Shown: positions 24,417 through 36,328 of the stretch, in pieces
How positions within the stretch are numbered: the first letter of the stretch is position 1
Layout of the letters: every line of letters begins with the position of its first letter
Notes under the pieces: generated by a model
Databases searched by the model: none
The model's input: only the letters and a program-made list of their open reading frames with translations
Told to the model about the DNA's origin: nothing
Translations under genes and position numbers: made by a program
Virus record (IMG/VR): IMGVR_UViG_3300044946_000150
Span: 1 to 37,156 of that record
Length of the DNA: 37,156 bases
Source of the DNA: a virus
Direction: 5' to 3' (one strand)

Positions 24417-26105
24417 TTAGAAGCCGAGGTTGACGGGGTTGAGCAGCGGGTTGAAGTTGCTGCTGGAGCCGGTGAACACCGAGCCGACCGACACGACCTG
24501 ACCCGGCGTCGCGTACGACTGGTACCGGTTCGTCAGGTAGGCCACGTAGTTGTAGACCTGGAAGCGGATCTGCAGATTGCCGCTCAGCACCTCGGACAGG
24601 ACGCGCGTGCGCATCTCCCCCTCCCACAAAAAGAGGTCGGAGGTGCGCTCGGCGAGGATCGGGGTGTAGTTCGCGTTCGTCCCGGAACCCGGGGCCGGCG
24701 CATAGGTGCCGTTGGAGATCGTGGTGATCTGCGGGGCGGTCGTACCGCCGAAGGTGAGCGGCATGTTGACGTCGAGGACCACCGGCAGCCCGTAGTACGT
24801 GCCGGCCGCGCCCTCGGTCAGCGGGCCGTCGTCGTCCATCGCCGCCTGGTTGAACGCCGCGCCACCGTTGCCGCCCGGCACGACCAGCGGCCGGTTCTGC
24901 GAATCGAGGGTGGACAGCAGCATGTACCAGAGGGTCGGGTTCCACACCCAGCGGTCCGGCGGCATCATGCGGTTGCGGCTCATCTGCGAGAGCAACTGCG
25001 CCGAGGAAAGGAACAGCGTGCCGGCGCCGCCGCCGGTGCCCACCGCGACCCAGGTCTGCCCGTTGGCGACCGTGTTGGTGTTGGTGTTCTGCACGACGAT
25101 CTGATTGCTCGAGGAGATCGCACCGGCCGGGTAGACGCCGGTGATCTGGCCGGCGAGGCCGGACCCGACGAGCGTCTGCCCGTCGAGCTGCATGTTGTAG
25201 TCCTCGGTCAGATCCTGGAAAATGATCTCGTCGAAGGTGACGGGGGACTGATCCAGGAGTTGGAGCGCGGCATCCTGCTGGCCGGCGACGGTACGCACCG
25301 GGGCGGAGACGAACGAGTCGGTCATGTCGCGGCCGGGCACGATGCCGCCGTCGGCGACCTGCGGACCGGTCGCGGTGCCGATGGTCACGCGCGGGATGTT
25401 GATGTTGTCGGTGCCGGCGGGAAGCGGAAGCTGGCGCGCCAGGTCGGCGTGCTCACGTCCGGCACGCAGGAACGGGATGTACTCGTCGATCAGCCACAGC
25501 GGCGGGACGAAGTACCCGCCGGCGCCGTCGACCCTGCTGATGAACCGCTTCTCGAACGGGCTCACGCCCTGCGAGAGCATGCGCATCGCAGCGCGGCGCT
25601 CGCGCTTGGACCCGGCCATCAGGGCCTCGGTGAACTTGCTCTCCGCGGCGCGGTCGATCTGCTGCTGCCGCTTGGGCAGGTCGACGTCGATCTCCTGTGC
25701 GTGCCGCTTGAGGCGGTCGCGGGCGGCGGTCGGGCCGCCTGAGCCGTCGCCGCGGTTGAGCTCGGAGCGGGCGAGGTCCAGGAAGTAGGACTGCTTGGAG
25801 CCCTTGCCGTAGGTGGTCGGCTCGTTGCCGACGGTCCAGCCGGAGCCGCGCTGCTCGTTCGGCGCGCCGTTGGTGTGGTCCTCGGTGCGTCCGCCGTTCT
25901 CGACGGCGCGGGATGCGGCGGCGCGCTTCTCGCGCTCGGCCTGGCGCTCGCGGATCTCGAGCTCGCCGTCGAGTTCGGTCACCTGGCCGTCGAGCTCGGT
26001 GAACCGGGCCCGCTGTTCGGCGTCCATCTTGTTCTTGCTGAGCTCGGACATCTCGTCGACGAGCTTGCTGCGATGGGCGCGGAGGTCTTCGATCACCCCG
26101 GGCAT
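24417..26105 (-). CDS. HK97-family major capsid protein
   Basis: The 562-residue protein (MPGVIEDLRAHRSKLVDEMS) has an N-terminal coiled coil at residues 1-75 (KMDAEQRARFTELDGQVTEL). This is the delta/scaffold segment removed during maturation, with a linker after it. The fold region reads ISRVDGAGGYFVPPLWLIDE, AGREHADLARQLPLPAGTDN, LTEDYNMQLDGQTLVGSGLA, SQMSRNRMMPPDRWVWNPTL and EMRTRVLSEVLSGNLQIRFQ. These match HK97-fold capsid proteins. It follows the protease and a small membrane gene. Its leader contains a hairpin that can hide its ribosome-binding site. Confidence 0.92.
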   Translation of the reverse strand: MPGVIEDLRAHRSKLVDEMSELSKNKMDAEQRARFTELDGQVTELDGELEIRERQAEREKRAAASRAVENGGRTEDHTNGAPNEQRGSGWTVGNEPTTYGKGSKQSYFLDLARSELNRGDGSGGPTAARDRLKRHAQEIDVDLPKRQQQIDRAAESKFTEALMAGSKRERRAAMRMLSQGVSPFEKRFISRVDGAGGYFVPPLWLIDEYIPFLRAGREHADLARQLPLPAGTDNINIPRVTIGTATGPQVADGGIVPGRDMTDSFVSAPVRTVAGQQDAALQLLDQSPVTFDEIIFQDLTEDYNMQLDGQTLVGSGLAGQITGVYPAGAISSSNQIVVQNTNTNTVANGQTWVAVGTGGGAGTLFLSSAQLLSQMSRNRMMPPDRWVWNPTLWYMLLSTLDSQNRPLVVPGGNGGAAFNQAAMDDDGPLTEGAAGTYYGLPVVLDVNMPLTFGGTTAPQITTISNGTYAPAPGSGTNANYTPILAERTSDLFLWEGEMRTRVLSEVLSGNLQIRFQVYNYVAYLTNRYQSYATPGQVVSVGSVFTGSSSNFNPLLNPVNLGF

Positions 26106-26289: not shown

Positions 26290-26706
26290 CTACGCGCTCG
26301 GCGGCACATCCCGCGACGCAACGAGCTCCCGGAGCTGCGCCAGCTCATGCAGGATCGCCTCGGCATCGTTGAACGTCATCTCCGACCGCTTGTCGGCCGC
26401 GCTGGCCTGGATGTTCTGACCCACGATGATGACCGACAGCAGCACCAGCTGAAGGAACTCCTCCGCGAACCAGTTCGCGAACCCGATCCCGCCCGGCTGC
26501 AACGCCACCGGCAGACCGTAGACCGCCCATCCGGCGAACAGCCACGCGCACGTCATCGTCCCGACGCCAGACGTGATCTTCACGGCCAGCCACGCGTTCA
26601 TCCGCGTATACCAGCCGGTACGCCGCAGCTGCGCGTCGACGGTCACCGGACCCTGCTGCCGGCGCCTGGCCAGGTGCGGGTGCGGCGCGTACGGGAACCT
26701 GCTCAT
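26290..26706 (-). CDS. Small membrane protein (DUF1003-like) between protease and capsid
   Basis: The 138-residue protein (MSRFPYAPHPHLARRRQQGP) has a membrane segment around VKITSGVGTMTCAWLFAGWA, a second around EEFLQLVLLSVIIVGQNIQA, and a cytoplasmic tail (RSEMTFNDAEAILHELAQLR). From memory, the second segment with its following charged residues resembles DUF1003. Membrane genes are unusual between prohead protease and capsid. The ATG overlaps the protease stop (ATGA). Confidence 0.65.
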   Translation of the reverse strand: MSRFPYAPHPHLARRRQQGPVTVDAQLRRTGWYTRMNAWLAVKITSGVGTMTCAWLFAGWAVYGLPVALQPGGIGFANWFAEEFLQLVLLSVIIVGQNIQASAADKRSEMTFNDAEAILHELAQLRELVASRDVPPSA

Positions 26707-27956
26707 GCCGCCAGACCTTTCAACTGAAGAACGCGCACCCGCAGCCGGGCGAGCGTCATGTCCTCTTCCTCGATCAGCCCCGACGCGTCCGTGATCACGT
26801 CGTCGAGGTCCCCCGCCGAGATCAGGCCGCCGTCGTCGTACAGGCACTGCCCGCACTGGTCGCAGTACCGCGCGTCCTGCGCGTTCGGAGCCTCACACTC
26901 ACCGGCCGGGCACGTCAGCGACGAATCGCCGTGCGAGGACGTGTCCTGCGCCGGGGCGGCCGAGAAGTCGGGCTCCGGTTCCGCGCCGGCCGCCGCGCGC
27001 CGCTCCGGCCGCCGCCAGTCCCACGCCGACGGAGCCTCGGTCGCGCCGTTCCCGGACCCGCCGTTGTCCGCGTCCCGGTCGGAGGCGATGTTCGTGCCGC
27101 ACTGGTCGCAGAACTTCGCGTCGTCGGCCGACCAGTTCCCGCATCCGCAGCGCTGCGTCTCGTTCTCCGCCGCGGTGCTCTGCCCGGTCGGGCGGACCGC
27201 GGTCCCGCACTGGTCGCAGTAGGCGGCGTCGCCGTCGTTCATGGAATGGCACTGCGGGCATTCCGCGTCCTCGCCGGCCTTGGCCGAGTACGGCGCGGTC
27301 GGCGTGCGCGCCTCGCGTAGTCCGGCCGCCCTCGCCGCGGCCTCCGACACGGGCACCGCAGTCATCGCGGCGCCGTTCGCGTTCGGGTTCGCCGCCCAGC
27401 ACACCACCGACACGTCGCCGCGGTTCAGGTTGATCTCGTTGATGCGGCGGGTCATCCAGTCCGGCGACCAGTCCTGCTGCGTGCATACGAACCCGATGGA
27501 CATCTCGTCCATGTCGCCGCGCGCCATTGCCGAGGCGAGGGACTGCACGATCGGCGAGCGGCCGTCGAGCGACGGGACGGCGACGTGCAGCCCGGACGTG
27601 TCAGCGGACAGGGCCATCGTGCCGGACTTGGTGCGGGCCAGGGAGATCCCGGCCTCGTCGTGGCCGATCAGGAAGTGGACGTCGGCGTTGTTCGCGAGGG
27701 TCCGGGTGCACGCGGACGCGCCGAGCACCTCCATGTACGGGTCGCCCCACGCGTCCCACATGTCGAACGGCTGTTCGAACGTGGCCGCGTAGCCCTCGAA
27801 CGCATAGGTCGTGCCGCCGGTGCCGTCGGGCTTGGCGCGGAACTCGAACTGGGCTGGGCGGGCACGGCGCTCGCGCTGGCCGCGCATGCCGGACCGGTGC
27901 TCGCGCAGCACGTCCACGGGGGTGCCCAGGACGGCCCGGGCGGTCTGAATGGCCAT
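26703..27956 (-). CDS. Prohead protease (S78-like) with three zinc ribbons
   Basis: The 417-residue protein (MAIQTARAVLGTPVDVLREH) has an S78-type protease core at residues 35-200, with FEGYAATFEQPFDMWDAWGD, candidate catalytic His99 in VHFLIGHDEAGIS and candidate Ser153 in GDMDEMSIGFVCTQ. The C-terminal half has three predicted zinc ribbons: C233/C236/C247/C250, C270/C272/C283/C286 and C349/C354/C365/C368. The CDQC motif occurs in each. It then ends in a helical tail (MTLARLRVRVLQLKGLAA). The ribbons are joined by disordered linkers. Protease function in capsid maturation is well established; the ribbon role is unknown. Confidence 0.85.
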   Translation of the reverse strand: MAIQTARAVLGTPVDVLREHRSGMRGQRERRARPAQFEFRAKPDGTGGTTYAFEGYAATFEQPFDMWDAWGDPYMEVLGASACTRTLANNADVHFLIGHDEAGISLARTKSGTMALSADTSGLHVAVPSLDGRSPIVQSLASAMARGDMDEMSIGFVCTQQDWSPDWMTRRINEINLNRGDVSVVCWAANPNANGAAMTAVPVSEAAARAAGLREARTPTAPYSAKAGEDAECPQCHSMNDGDAAYCDQCGTAVRPTGQSTAAENETQRCGCGNWSADDAKFCDQCGTNIASDRDADNGGSGNGATEAPSAWDWRRPERRAAAGAEPEPDFSAAPAQDTSSHGDSSLTCPAGECEAPNAQDARYCDQCGQCLYDDGGLISAGDLDDVITDASGLIEEEDMTLARLRVRVLQLKGLAA

Positions 27957-27957
27957 C

Positions 27958-29157
27958 TCAGGATCCGATCTTGGGGGAGCCGATGGGCGGCGGGGCCGGC
28001 AGGACCAGGGCATCGATCTCGGCCTGCTGCTCGGGCGTGGCCGGCGGGATGTCCTCCATCGCACGGATCTCGGATCCGGCGAGGATGCGGGCGCCGATCT
28101 GCATGTGGTGGATCTGCCACCTGGTGAGGGCGTCGGTGCGCAGCAGCTTGGAGTCATCGAGCTTCACGTACTGGCCGCGCGGCACGAGCTCGCTGTCCCA
28201 TTCCTCCCACCGCTCGATCCAGCCGATGAGTCCGTACTTCAGGAAGTCCACTGAGCGCGAGTCGACGTTGGCGTAGGTGATCGCGCTGCCTTCGCTGGCC
28301 TCACCGACGATCTCAGGCGGCACGCCGAAGAAGCCGCAGATCGCAGACCCGGTGTACTTCTGCGTCTCAAGGAATTGCGATTCGTCGGGGCGGATCTGGA
28401 TCTGCTCGTATTTCCAGCCGCCGCCCATCACCACGGGCTCGCGGGTGCCGTGCACTGCGGCGAGGAACCGCTGCTTGATCGTCTGCGCTTCCTCCTGGTC
28501 GACCAGCTTCTTCGTGTCGTTGGTCAGGATCCCGGAGGGGTGGCCGCCGTCCTCGAAGTACTGCGACCCGAAGCTCTGCGCGGTCACGCTGAGTTGGACC
28601 ATCTTCTGCGCGTACTTGATCGGCGACAGGCCCGTGCGCACGCCCGGCATGCGATAGGCCATCTTGTGCCAGACGGCCTCCGGATCCATGGTCCGATTGC
28701 CGAACTTGTACACCACGGTGCCGTCGCGCTCCTGGACAACCTTCACGCGGTCCGGGTGCTGGAGCTCGATCTGCTCCGGGTAGCCCGCCTTGCTGCGCCC
28801 GAGGATCTCGCCATACACGTTGCCGCGCAGCAGCAGGGAGACCATGGCCATATACCGGAAGTCGAAGCCCGAGGCGTCCGCGGACGGCTTGGTCAGGATC
28901 GTGGGCGCGGGCTGGCGGACCGCCTGGCCGTGGCCGACGCCAGGGCCCTTGTAGACCACGGGGGTCATCGACGCCATGACGTCCGACACCAGCCGGACGC
29001 ACTTCCAGACGGTGTGCTGGCGCATCGCCCCTTCGACGTCGCCGGACGCGTAGTCCTGGAGTGCCTGCGTGTAGGCGCCGATCGGCGGGGCGATGAAAGT
29101 CAGGGAGCGCTTCTCGAAGGGGCTGCCGGCCGGTCGGGCGGCCGTGAACAGGCCCAT
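27958..29157 (-). CDS. HK97-family portal protein
   Basis: The 399-residue protein (MGLFTAARPAGSPFEKRSLT) carries the HK97 portal pattern: HTVWKCVRLVSDVMASMTPV, SLLLRGNVYGEILGRSKAGY, AYRMPGVRTGLSPIKYAQKM, FEDGGHPSGILTNDTKKLVD, then QRFLAAVHGTREPVVMGGGW and GFFGVPPEIVGEASEGSAIT. Portals form the dodecameric gate at one vertex for DNA entry and exit. The Pro-rich end (LVLPAPPPIGSPKIGS) is flexible. It lies next to the terminase and protease. Its start shares TGATG with the preceding small membrane gene. Confidence 0.92.
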   Translation of the reverse strand: MGLFTAARPAGSPFEKRSLTFIAPPIGAYTQALQDYASGDVEGAMRQHTVWKCVRLVSDVMASMTPVVYKGPGVGHGQAVRQPAPTILTKPSADASGFDFRYMAMVSLLLRGNVYGEILGRSKAGYPEQIELQHPDRVKVVQERDGTVVYKFGNRTMDPEAVWHKMAYRMPGVRTGLSPIKYAQKMVQLSVTAQSFGSQYFEDGGHPSGILTNDTKKLVDQEEAQTIKQRFLAAVHGTREPVVMGGGWKYEQIQIRPDESQFLETQKYTGSAICGFFGVPPEIVGEASEGSAITYANVDSRSVDFLKYGLIGWIERWEEWDSELVPRGQYVKLDDSKLLRTDALTRWQIHHMQIGARILAGSEIRAMEDIPPATPEQQAEIDALVLPAPPPIGSPKIGS

Positions 29158-29402
29158 CAGTCGGCCTGGCCGCGCACGATCGGTCGGCGACGGGCCGCGA
29201 CGCCCGAGAGCTCGTTGGCGGCCCAGAGCAGGGCGCAGCCGCCGGTGATCCATCCGGCTGGAGAGTAGATCATGGACGCTCCCCACGACACCATCGCGGC
29301 ACCCGCCAGCCCAACGAGGCTGTGCGCTATGCGGACAGTATGCCCCGCAAATGCCACCATGGACAGCGGAAGCGTCCGGATAGCGGACAAGAGACGGCCC
29401 AT
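29157..29402 (-). CDS. Small two-segment membrane protein
   Basis: The 81-residue protein (MGRLLSAIRTLPLSMVAFAG) has hydrophobic stretches at about residues 12-40 and 44-65 (GAAMVSWGASMIYSPAGWIT, GGCALLWAANELSGVAARRR). It lies between terminase and portal, where a membrane gene is unexpected. An inner-membrane or superinfection role is possible but unproven. The stop overlaps the portal start. Confidence 0.65.
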   Translation of the reverse strand: MGRLLSAIRTLPLSMVAFAGHTVRIAHSLVGLAGAAMVSWGASMIYSPAGWITGGCALLWAANELSGVAARRRPIVRGQAD

Positions 29403-29424
29403 GGTCCACCATGATGCACCCGAA

Positions 29425-32493: not shown

Positions 32494-32835
32494 TCATTTC
32501 CTGCCGCTGGCTTTGGTGGAGTTGCATGTGCGGCAGAGGACGTGGAGATTCCCTGGGTGGTCTGTTCCGCCGTGTGCTTTCGGGATGATGTGGTCTACGG
32601 TGAGGTCGGTTGCTGGGTGTGGTGGTCGGTTCCATCCTGGGCATATGCTGCCGTATTGTGCGCGGTGGTTGGTGAGGATCTGTGTGGATAGTGCTGTCCA
32701 TTGACTGCCGTATCCACGCTGGTGACGACTGCCTCGTCTGGTTTCGGTTCGCTGGTTGAGCGCTGTCTGGCATGGTGGGCAGCGTGATCCGCTGGTGGTG
32801 AGTTTTCCGCAGCCGAGGCAGAATTTCGTCGGCAT
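32494..32835 (-). CDS. HNH endonuclease beside the terminase
   Basis: The 113-residue protein (MPTKFCLGCGKLTTSGSRCP) has two N-terminal CxxC pairs that may form a zinc knuckle. Its HNH core reads DLTVDHIIPKAHGGTDHPGN, then LHVLCRTCNSTKASGRK. The catalytic His (in DH), a central Asn and the C-terminal CxxC-Asn match HK97-gp74-like HNH proteins, which assist terminase cleavage at cos. It lies next to the packaging genes, and its GC is much lower than its neighbours, suggesting transfer. It could alternatively be a homing endonuclease. Confidence 0.85.
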   Translation of the reverse strand: MPTKFCLGCGKLTTSGSRCPPCQTALNQRTETRRGSRHQRGYGSQWTALSTQILTNHRAQYGSICPGWNRPPHPATDLTVDHIIPKAHGGTDHPGNLHVLCRTCNSTKASGRK

Positions 32836-35184: not shown

Positions 35185-35945
35185 CGGTATTCGCTGGCCT
35201 TGAGCATCCAATTTCTCCATGTCGCCTCCCAGTCGAGTTTCGTTGCGGCTTGGCCGGTTTTCGCGGTCCAGTAGTTGCGGAATTTCTCGGTTTCGCGTTT
35301 GCCGTCGACGTGTTCGCTGATGTTGGTGTCGAACCAGGCGCGCATTTCGGGGGTGACGCGGAAATCGTCGGGGAGGCGGGTGCCTTTGCGTCGCGGTGGC
35401 TTGGGGGCGTTGGCGGCCGGCGTTTGCGCCGGCGGTTCGTGAGCCGCCCCGTTCGTAACGCCGTTACGTTGCGCGGACCCAAGCTCTTGTAGTTCGGGTA
35501 CGGGACGGGACGGGACGCCGTTACTACCCTCGTTACTAACGCCGTTACTAACAGCGTTACGCCTTTCGGCCTGCCGTTCGCGCCATTCCTGCTGGCGGCG
35601 GGCGTTATCGAGGCGGTCCGCATGCACCCGCTCGGCACTCGGCTGGTACTCCAGATAGTCGTGGATGACCCATCCGTCCCCGTTGTGGGGCGCAACGCAC
35701 CTGTCGGACGGGCAGGTCTCGTCGCCGAGATGCCAGAGTCGCCGGATCACGAGCTCGGCAGCGAAGCGGATCGGCGTTCGCACCCGCGCACACACGTCGT
35801 CGAGATCGTCCTTGGACACGAATCCGTCTGTGAGGTTTCGCGCGCACCAGAAGATCGCCGAGACGTGCAGGCGGAATGCAGCATCCGAAAGGCCTGCCGT
35901 CTTCCTGTGAATCGGGAACTGGTCATCGAAGCGGACCCAGGGCAT
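35181..35945 (-). CDS. Replication initiator-like protein (winged helix)
   Basis: The 254-residue protein (MPWVRFDDQFPIHRKTAGLS) has an N-terminal winged-helix pattern at residues 1-110, with DAAFRLHVSAIFWCARNLTD, GFVSKDDLDDVCARVRTPIR, VIRRLWHLGDETCPSDRCVA, HNGDGWVIHDYLEYQPSAER. This is typical of phage DnaD/replisome-organiser proteins. A low-complexity linker at 115-180 has NAVSNGVSNEGSNGVPS, and the C-terminus (RLPDDFRVTPEMRAWFDTNI, KFRNYWTAKTGQAATKLDWE) resembles phage replication-protein ends. The linker coincides with 12-bp iterons, as in lambda O. It would load host replication machinery. No helicase gene is present. Confidence 0.8.
   Translation of the reverse strand: MPWVRFDDQFPIHRKTAGLSDAAFRLHVSAIFWCARNLTDGFVSKDDLDDVCARVRTPIRFAAELVIRRLWHLGDETCPSDRCVAPHNGDGWVIHDYLEYQPSAERVHADRLDNARRQQEWRERQAERRNAVSNGVSNEGSNGVPSRPVPELQELGSAQRNGVTNGAAHEPPAQTPAANAPKPPRRKGTRLPDDFRVTPEMRAWFDTNISEHVDGKRETEKFRNYWTAKTGQAATKLDWEATWRNWMLKASEYR
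35519..35560. other. Candidate replication origin: 12-bp iterons in the initiator gene
   Basis: CGTTAC begins at 35519, 35531, 35543 and 35555, exactly 12 bases apart. The first three copies extend to CGTTACTA. Further CGTTACG and CGTAACG copies lie at 35463 and 35454. In several phages, such as lambda, origin iterons lie inside the initiator gene. The repeats also encode the NGVS/NEGS tetrapeptides, so function as DNA and as linker are not separable by sequence alone. Confidence 0.6.
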
Positions 35946-36328
35946 TAGTCCCGTGCTCCCTTGCTGCTATTGCAGGGGCCGCAGAGGGTCTGGAGATTGT
36001 CGAGGTCGTCCGTGCCGCCCTTGGACACGGGTGTGATGTGGTCGACGGTGAGGCCGCGGTGCGAGCCGCACCGTCGGCAGGTCCAGTCATCGCGGTCCCA
36101 CACCTTGCGCGACTTGGCGTGCGGCATCTTCCGGCGCGTCGACTTCGTCCGCCCCGGTGCGACATATCCCTCCTGCTGGGCTGCCCAGGCGATGCGTGAG
36201 CACGCGTCCGTGATCGGCTCTCCCGAGCCCCAGCCGAGTTCCCGGCAGGCTTGGAAGAGCTCGAGGGCGGCTATGCGCGCCCGCTCGTCGAGCTCATGCT
36301 CGCGGGCCACGTCCTCGTCGTACGTCAT
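35945..36328 (-). CDS. HNH endonuclease (second)
   Basis: The 127-residue protein (MTYDEDVAREHELDERARIA) has an N-terminal helical region, then a zinc-HNH core: RKVWDRDDWTCRRCGSHRGL, TVDHITPVSKGGTDDLDNLQ, TLCGPCNSSKG. The His in VDHI, the Asn and the CxxC-Asn match the HNH family. It lies next to the replication initiator. It may be a homing or recombination nuclease. It is distinct from the HNH beside the terminase. Confidence 0.85.
   Translation of the reverse strand: MTYDEDVAREHELDERARIAALELFQACRELGWGSGEPITDACSRIAWAAQQEGYVAPGRTKSTRRKMPHAKSRKVWDRDDWTCRRCGSHRGLTVDHITPVSKGGTDDLDNLQTLCGPCNSSKGARD

Follow-up and report, generated by a model that had tools for sequence, protein, structure and literature searches.

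The head maturation protease encoded in a 37-kb virus record from IMG/VR (the window, meaning this whole stretch of DNA) is fused to a tail of about 200 residues that carries three zinc ribbons. The protease probably cuts this tail itself, after residues 217 and 320, freeing the ribbons in the prohead. We consider it fairly likely that the tail is an interchangeable, self-cleaved propeptide of the head protease, whose ribbons would help the enzyme to be incorporated and held before they are removed. At the level of sequence, the fusion of the ribbons to the protease, their conservation, the modularity of the tail, and the presence of E-x-R motifs at its borders are well established. The finding suggests a way for this phage group to deliver its protease, together with accessory peptides, to the prohead and to clear them again, and a single, simple cleavage code (E-x-R) is proposed for the capsid protein, the portal, and the protease. 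For T4, what self-cleavage of the protease contributes to head maturation has been pointed out as an open gap (PMC9026906).

The protease gene and its zinc-ribbon tail

All of the features described here lie on the minus strand. Positions 26703..27956 translate without a stop into one protein of 417 amino acids (P0001), in agreement with the coordinates and frame given by an earlier, sequence-only reading of this DNA. The start codon directly follows the stop codon of the portal gene and agrees with the start found in the relatives. PHROGs assigned both neighbors: the portal protein (27958..29412, with a likely start, MGLFTAARP, at about 29157) and the major capsid protein (24417..26105), which has an N-terminal delta (scaffold) domain and is the expected main substrate. 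The large terminase is located further upstream and the tail genes downstream of this block (PHROGs), and mycobacteriophages display the identical portal-protease-capsid order. An open reading frame of about 137 codons with hydrophobic stretches (26290..26706), whose start overlaps the protease stop, lies between the protease and capsid genes; searched against Pfam and PHROGs, it gave no matches, and the same interval is shorter in the close relatives examined. Two HNH endonuclease genes (32494..32835 and 35945..36328) are found near the right end of the window, upstream of the terminase.

The gene product is the head maturation protease of an HK97-type temperate phage, Streptomycetaceae-type. 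Its catalytic domain (residues 48 to 194, 27375..27815) matches Peptidase_S78 (PF04586) with an E value of 1.9e-20 (74.1 bits versus a cut-off of 21), and the protein matches the head maturation protease family phrog_7053 (5.7e-32); the score for NCBIfam TIGR01543 (53.5 bits) is slightly below the cut-off of 59. The catalytic residues H99, S153, and D181 are kept in 25 of 25 aligned relatives, and the best PDB fold match to the P0001 model is T4 gp21, with a weak E value (4.7e-3) and a probability of 0.97. Family match, catalytic residues, synteny, and fold thus bear out the identification as a prohead protease.

Behind the core, in the same frame, follow a double zinc ribbon, a third ribbon, and a terminal helix, separated by disordered linkers. 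Ribbon 1 (residues 233 to 250, 27207..27260; C233, C236, C247, and C250) has the regular CxxC-CxxC spacing, while ribbon 2 (residues 270 to 286, 27099..27149; C270, C272, C283, and C286), which forms the double zinc ribbon with ribbon 1, starts with CxC, and ribbon 3 (residues 349 to 368, 26853..26912; C349, C354, C365, and C368) starts with Cx4C. CDQC makes up the second half of all three, and the canonical CxxC is present in ribbon 2 of two relatives (L031 and L035) and in ribbon 3 of another (L009). The Pfam families DZR (PF12773; 2.7e-9, 37.5 bits versus a gathering cut-off of 27.3, residues 233 to 287) and Zn_Ribbon_1 (PF13240; 2.3e-8, 34 bits versus 25) each match three stretches, exceeding their gathering cut-offs. 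In an AlphaFold2 model built with 25 relatives, ribbons 1 and 2 reach pLDDT values of 81 to 91 and ribbon 3 about 73 to 79, against 31 to 42 for the linkers. The proposal of three ribbons joined by disordered linkers, for which structure prediction had been suggested as a check, is therefore upheld by Pfam and the model. When the ribbon region was searched by itself, no significant fold match was returned. As modeled, P0001 shares with the double zinc ribbon (DZR/Zn_Ribbon_1) the four cysteines per ribbon and a confident pair fold, but its ribbons are fused to a head protease and include the CxC and Cx4C variants.

Since all 12 ribbon cysteines are invariant across 15 relatives, pairwise dN/dS is below 1 (0.17 to 0.47 for the ribbon region and 0.17 to 0.42 for the core), and a ribbon HMM run against every frame of the window found no other convincing match, the ribbons are not a chance feature. 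The same HMM result shows that the window's proteins do not carry ribbons in general. The sequence-only reading had named a ribbon region encoded in another frame as what would refute it; the continuous frame and the purifying selection rule out a separate gene or product. The ribbons presumably bind zinc, judging from their invariant cysteines, and the His-rich block that replaces ribbon 3 in two relatives (L034 and L085) fits metal binding. They are acidic (net charges of -4, -2, and -4 for ribbons 1, 2, and 3), and the net charge of whole tails ranges from -12 to -23 across 15 relatives.

E-x-R motifs at the module borders

After its core, P0001 contains exactly two E-x-R motifs, E215-A-R217 between the core and ribbon 1 (27306..27314; EAR217/TPT) and E318-R-R320 between ribbons 2 and 3 (26997..27005; ERR320/AA). 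Both predicted self-cleavage sites fall at module borders in low-confidence linkers (pLDDT 31 to 37). In 40 representative tails, E-x-R was observed 80 times versus 22.0 ± 4.4 in composition-preserving shuffles (1,000 rounds; maximum in any, 36), a 3.6-fold enrichment that overstates the certainty, because relatedness within the family means that the occurrences do not count independently. None of R-x-E, D-x-R, E-x-K, and E-x-x-R exceeds the shuffle expectation in these tails. Nearly all of the tail E-x-R sites are located at module borders (one is within a ribbon), and multimodule tails such as that of L133 have a separate site ahead of each added module; the motif is missing at one expected border in four relatives (L034, L082, L083, and L088). 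E-x-R also occurs within the folded core (e.g., ERRIT), so the motif alone is insufficient.

The same motif marks the predicted cuts in the two neighboring head proteins. At the border between the capsid delta domain and the shell, every one of 20 relatives has E-x-R, even the three whose insertion displaces the motif; in the window, the predicted maturation cut follows E185-K-R187 (25545..25553; E-K-R/F), where the P0001 protease would remove the delta domain. The portal N terminus carries a predicted cut after E-K-R (29107..29115; SPFEKR/SLTF), and E-x-R is conserved there both in the window and in each of the 29 readable relatives, mycobacteriophages among them. The six residues SPFEKR are the same as those of the capsid cleavage region. 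An experimental anchor comes from the mycobacteriophage LittleE, whose protease is 41% identical to the P0001 core: the N terminus of its capsid protein is DLDRNNGTGG by Edman sequencing (PMC3706429), and its capsid gene reads VGEEYR/DLDRNNGTGG, which places the cut after E-Y-R. Taken together, the border motifs, their identity with the capsid, portal, and LittleE cut motif, and the enrichment make self-cleavage of the tail very probable, and the earlier suggestion that the ribbons are removed in this way is strongly supported in silico.

The code does not hold throughout the family. The HK97 gp5 cut site lies between K103 and S104 (PMC10275583), and the HK97 record reads FNK/S at this point, which rules out cleavage after E-E-K. 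E-x-R is thus not universal in the family, and our claim is confined to this group of phages and to mycobacteriophages of the Omega-like kind. Proteases of the HK97 gp4 type have in common with P0001 the S78 domain, the invariant H/S/D residues, the portal-protease-capsid order, and the capsid delta domain, but HK97 gp4 comprises 225 residues without ribbons. The proteases of the Cluster J mycobacteriophages (Omegavirus) LittleE, Baka, and WXIN are closer (41 to 46% core identity) and have a long acidic tail as in P0001, but one free of cysteines and ribbons. T4 gp21, phiKZ gp175, and SPN3US gp245 are distantly related in fold and share a short P3-x-P1 cleavage motif; they cut after glutamate (L/I-x-E and A-x-E), whereas the predicted P0001 code ends in arginine, and the parts of their descriptions consulted mention no ribbons. 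We found no earlier description of an S78 head protease with a swappable zinc-ribbon tail, or of any zinc-ribbon prohead protease, in a literature search without most subscription journals, which is weak evidence of novelty.

Variation of the tail in relatives and in other head proteases

Dozens of relatives were collected from scans of IMG/VR and a genome collection, the family-level genome search covering 101 genomes; integrated copies occur in two Kitasatospora genomes (L046 and L055) and in two further genomes of the same family (L066 and L067). A tblastn search of cultured phages with the tail found nothing, with a low-complexity filter that may mask Cys-rich stretches. Most close relatives have three ribbons, yet L010 has only ribbons 1 and 2; L012, L046, and the L039-L044 group have only ribbon 3; and L037 has none, retaining the core and the terminal helix. 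In more distant relatives (L034, L085, and L090), a His-rich block takes the place of ribbon 3, and an inserted domain of about 70 residues separates ribbons 2 and 3 in L085, L088, L090, L098, and L099. DUF6582 is matched weakly in L099 and L149. In the tails of L034, L085, L090, L130, and L133, His-rich blocks (HxHxH repeats) stand in for the ribbons or accompany them. An N-terminal extension of about 100 residues precedes the protease in six relatives (L005, L006, L012, L031, L041, and L082), and small domains resembling it sit in the C-terminal tails of L085, L090, and L099.

The C-terminal helix of P0001 (residues 398 to 416, 26709..26765), with its RxLxL-type ending, is also present in ribbon-less relatives. 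Compact S78 proteases from the same host family (L056-L061, L063, L064, and L068) are about 220 to 250 residues long and ribbon-free, and most of them end in an ARxRALxL-like motif. Because this C-terminal motif is mostly shared, the ribbons are best described as a cassette inserted between the core and the conserved C-terminal helix.

Ribbon loss happened independently on at least four occasions: in the maximum-likelihood tree of the core, ribbon-poor forms are scattered over several separate places, for example with L046 beside L026 (99/96) and L037 with L005 and L009 (99/94). The capsid proteins of L026 and L046 are 86 to 88% identical even though ribbons 1 and 2 are present in the former and absent in the latter, indicating that these two ribbons are unnecessary for building that capsid. 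L037 has no ribbons at all and other relatives have a reduced set, so head assembly as such does not generally depend on them. In L012, the deletion of ribbons 1 and 2 fuses two RERR-coding repeat copies, as recombination between border motifs predicts.

Similar modules occur outside this family. The Clp-type (ClpP-type) head proteases L151 and L153 contain a His block and a YCDQCG-type ribbon, ribbons link the S78 and capsid parts of the fusion protein L152, a different S78 protease (L143) has them on its N-terminal side, and the S78 proteins L155 and L156 have one ribbon each. Family matches and inspection by eye point to one pool of modules that head proteases have in common. It is possible, though we remain doubtful, that the tails are a self-processing polyprotein slot in which small metal-binding modules (ribbons and His-rich blocks) and the domain of about 70 residues are swapped between E-x-R sites; given the similar modules of the nonhomologous L151/L153, L152, and L143, these would then form a toolkit carried into proheads by whichever protease is present, perhaps as internal head cargo.

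Proposed function of the ribbons before cleavage

In the mechanism that we propose, the protease would enter the prohead while still attached to its tail, in which disordered linkers connect the double zinc ribbon, the third ribbon, and the short helix at the end. Before cleavage, the acidic ribbons would most likely serve as compact folds for binding other proteins and so help to bring the protease into the prohead or keep it there. Once active, the enzyme would cut after E-x-R at the capsid scaffold/shell border and at the portal N terminus, and R217 and R320 would mark the cuts in its own linkers, with a further cut perhaps close to its N terminus. These cuts would free the protease core and release the ribbon pair and the ribbon-3/helix piece within the head. 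The two self-cleavage sites are predicted from sequence, and we infer the role of the ribbons in docking, placing, or holding the protease; that they target it to the prohead, as had been suggested, is plausible. There are parallels in other phages: C-terminal self-processing is established for the phiKZ and SPN3US proteases (PMC5694885), and the propeptides of T4 gp21 are proposed to target it to the prohead (PMC9026906).

The released ribbons might instead be cargo that stays in the capsid, leaves it together with the DNA, and acts in the host cell; the protease would then be a polyprotein that processes itself and thereby loads the head with small proteins. We regard this as unlikely, even if the tails of L130, L133, L134, and L142 chain several small domains that are mostly preceded by E-x-R, and the module set turns over fast while core and capsid stay alike (L026 versus L046). 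T4 provides a parallel in its internal head proteins, but its core protein fragments mostly exit the head (PMC9026906); moreover, an assembly role would also fit module types that recur at both ends of the protease as well as in head proteases of other kinds. It is less probable still that the ribbons keep the protease inactive or oligomeric until the prohead closes, with zinc loss or cleavage as the activating event. A ribbon-type fold beside the core could obstruct the active site, and autocleavage of T4 gp21 is proposed to be linked to activation (PMC9026906). However, the models contain no confident core-ribbon contact (pTM 0.35), and the close relative L037 keeps the same core and helix without ribbons, so inhibition cannot be generally required.

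Many zinc ribbons bind nucleic acid, and the sequence-only reading had included nucleic acid among the factors that the tail may recruit. That the ribbons bind, for instance, the packaged DNA end or mRNA seems very improbable to us: the ribbon model weakly resembles RanBP-type fingers, among them one with a structure in complex with RNA, at a nonsignificant E value of 7.9, but the acidic charge of each ribbon (-2 to -4) and of the tails argues against such binding, and no conserved basic patch is present. Together with the His-rich block in place of ribbon 3, this acidity favors a protein-binding or structural role. Nor do we give much credence to the ribbons being neutral baggage of recombination without a role in head assembly. 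The repeated losses and the joined RERR repeats of L012 are what such baggage could leave behind, but the ribbons are under purifying selection, their cysteines are invariant, and they recur in unrelated head proteases. A ready-made experiment already exists in nature, where the number of ribbons varies (0, 1, 2, or 3) among phages whose capsid proteins are similar.
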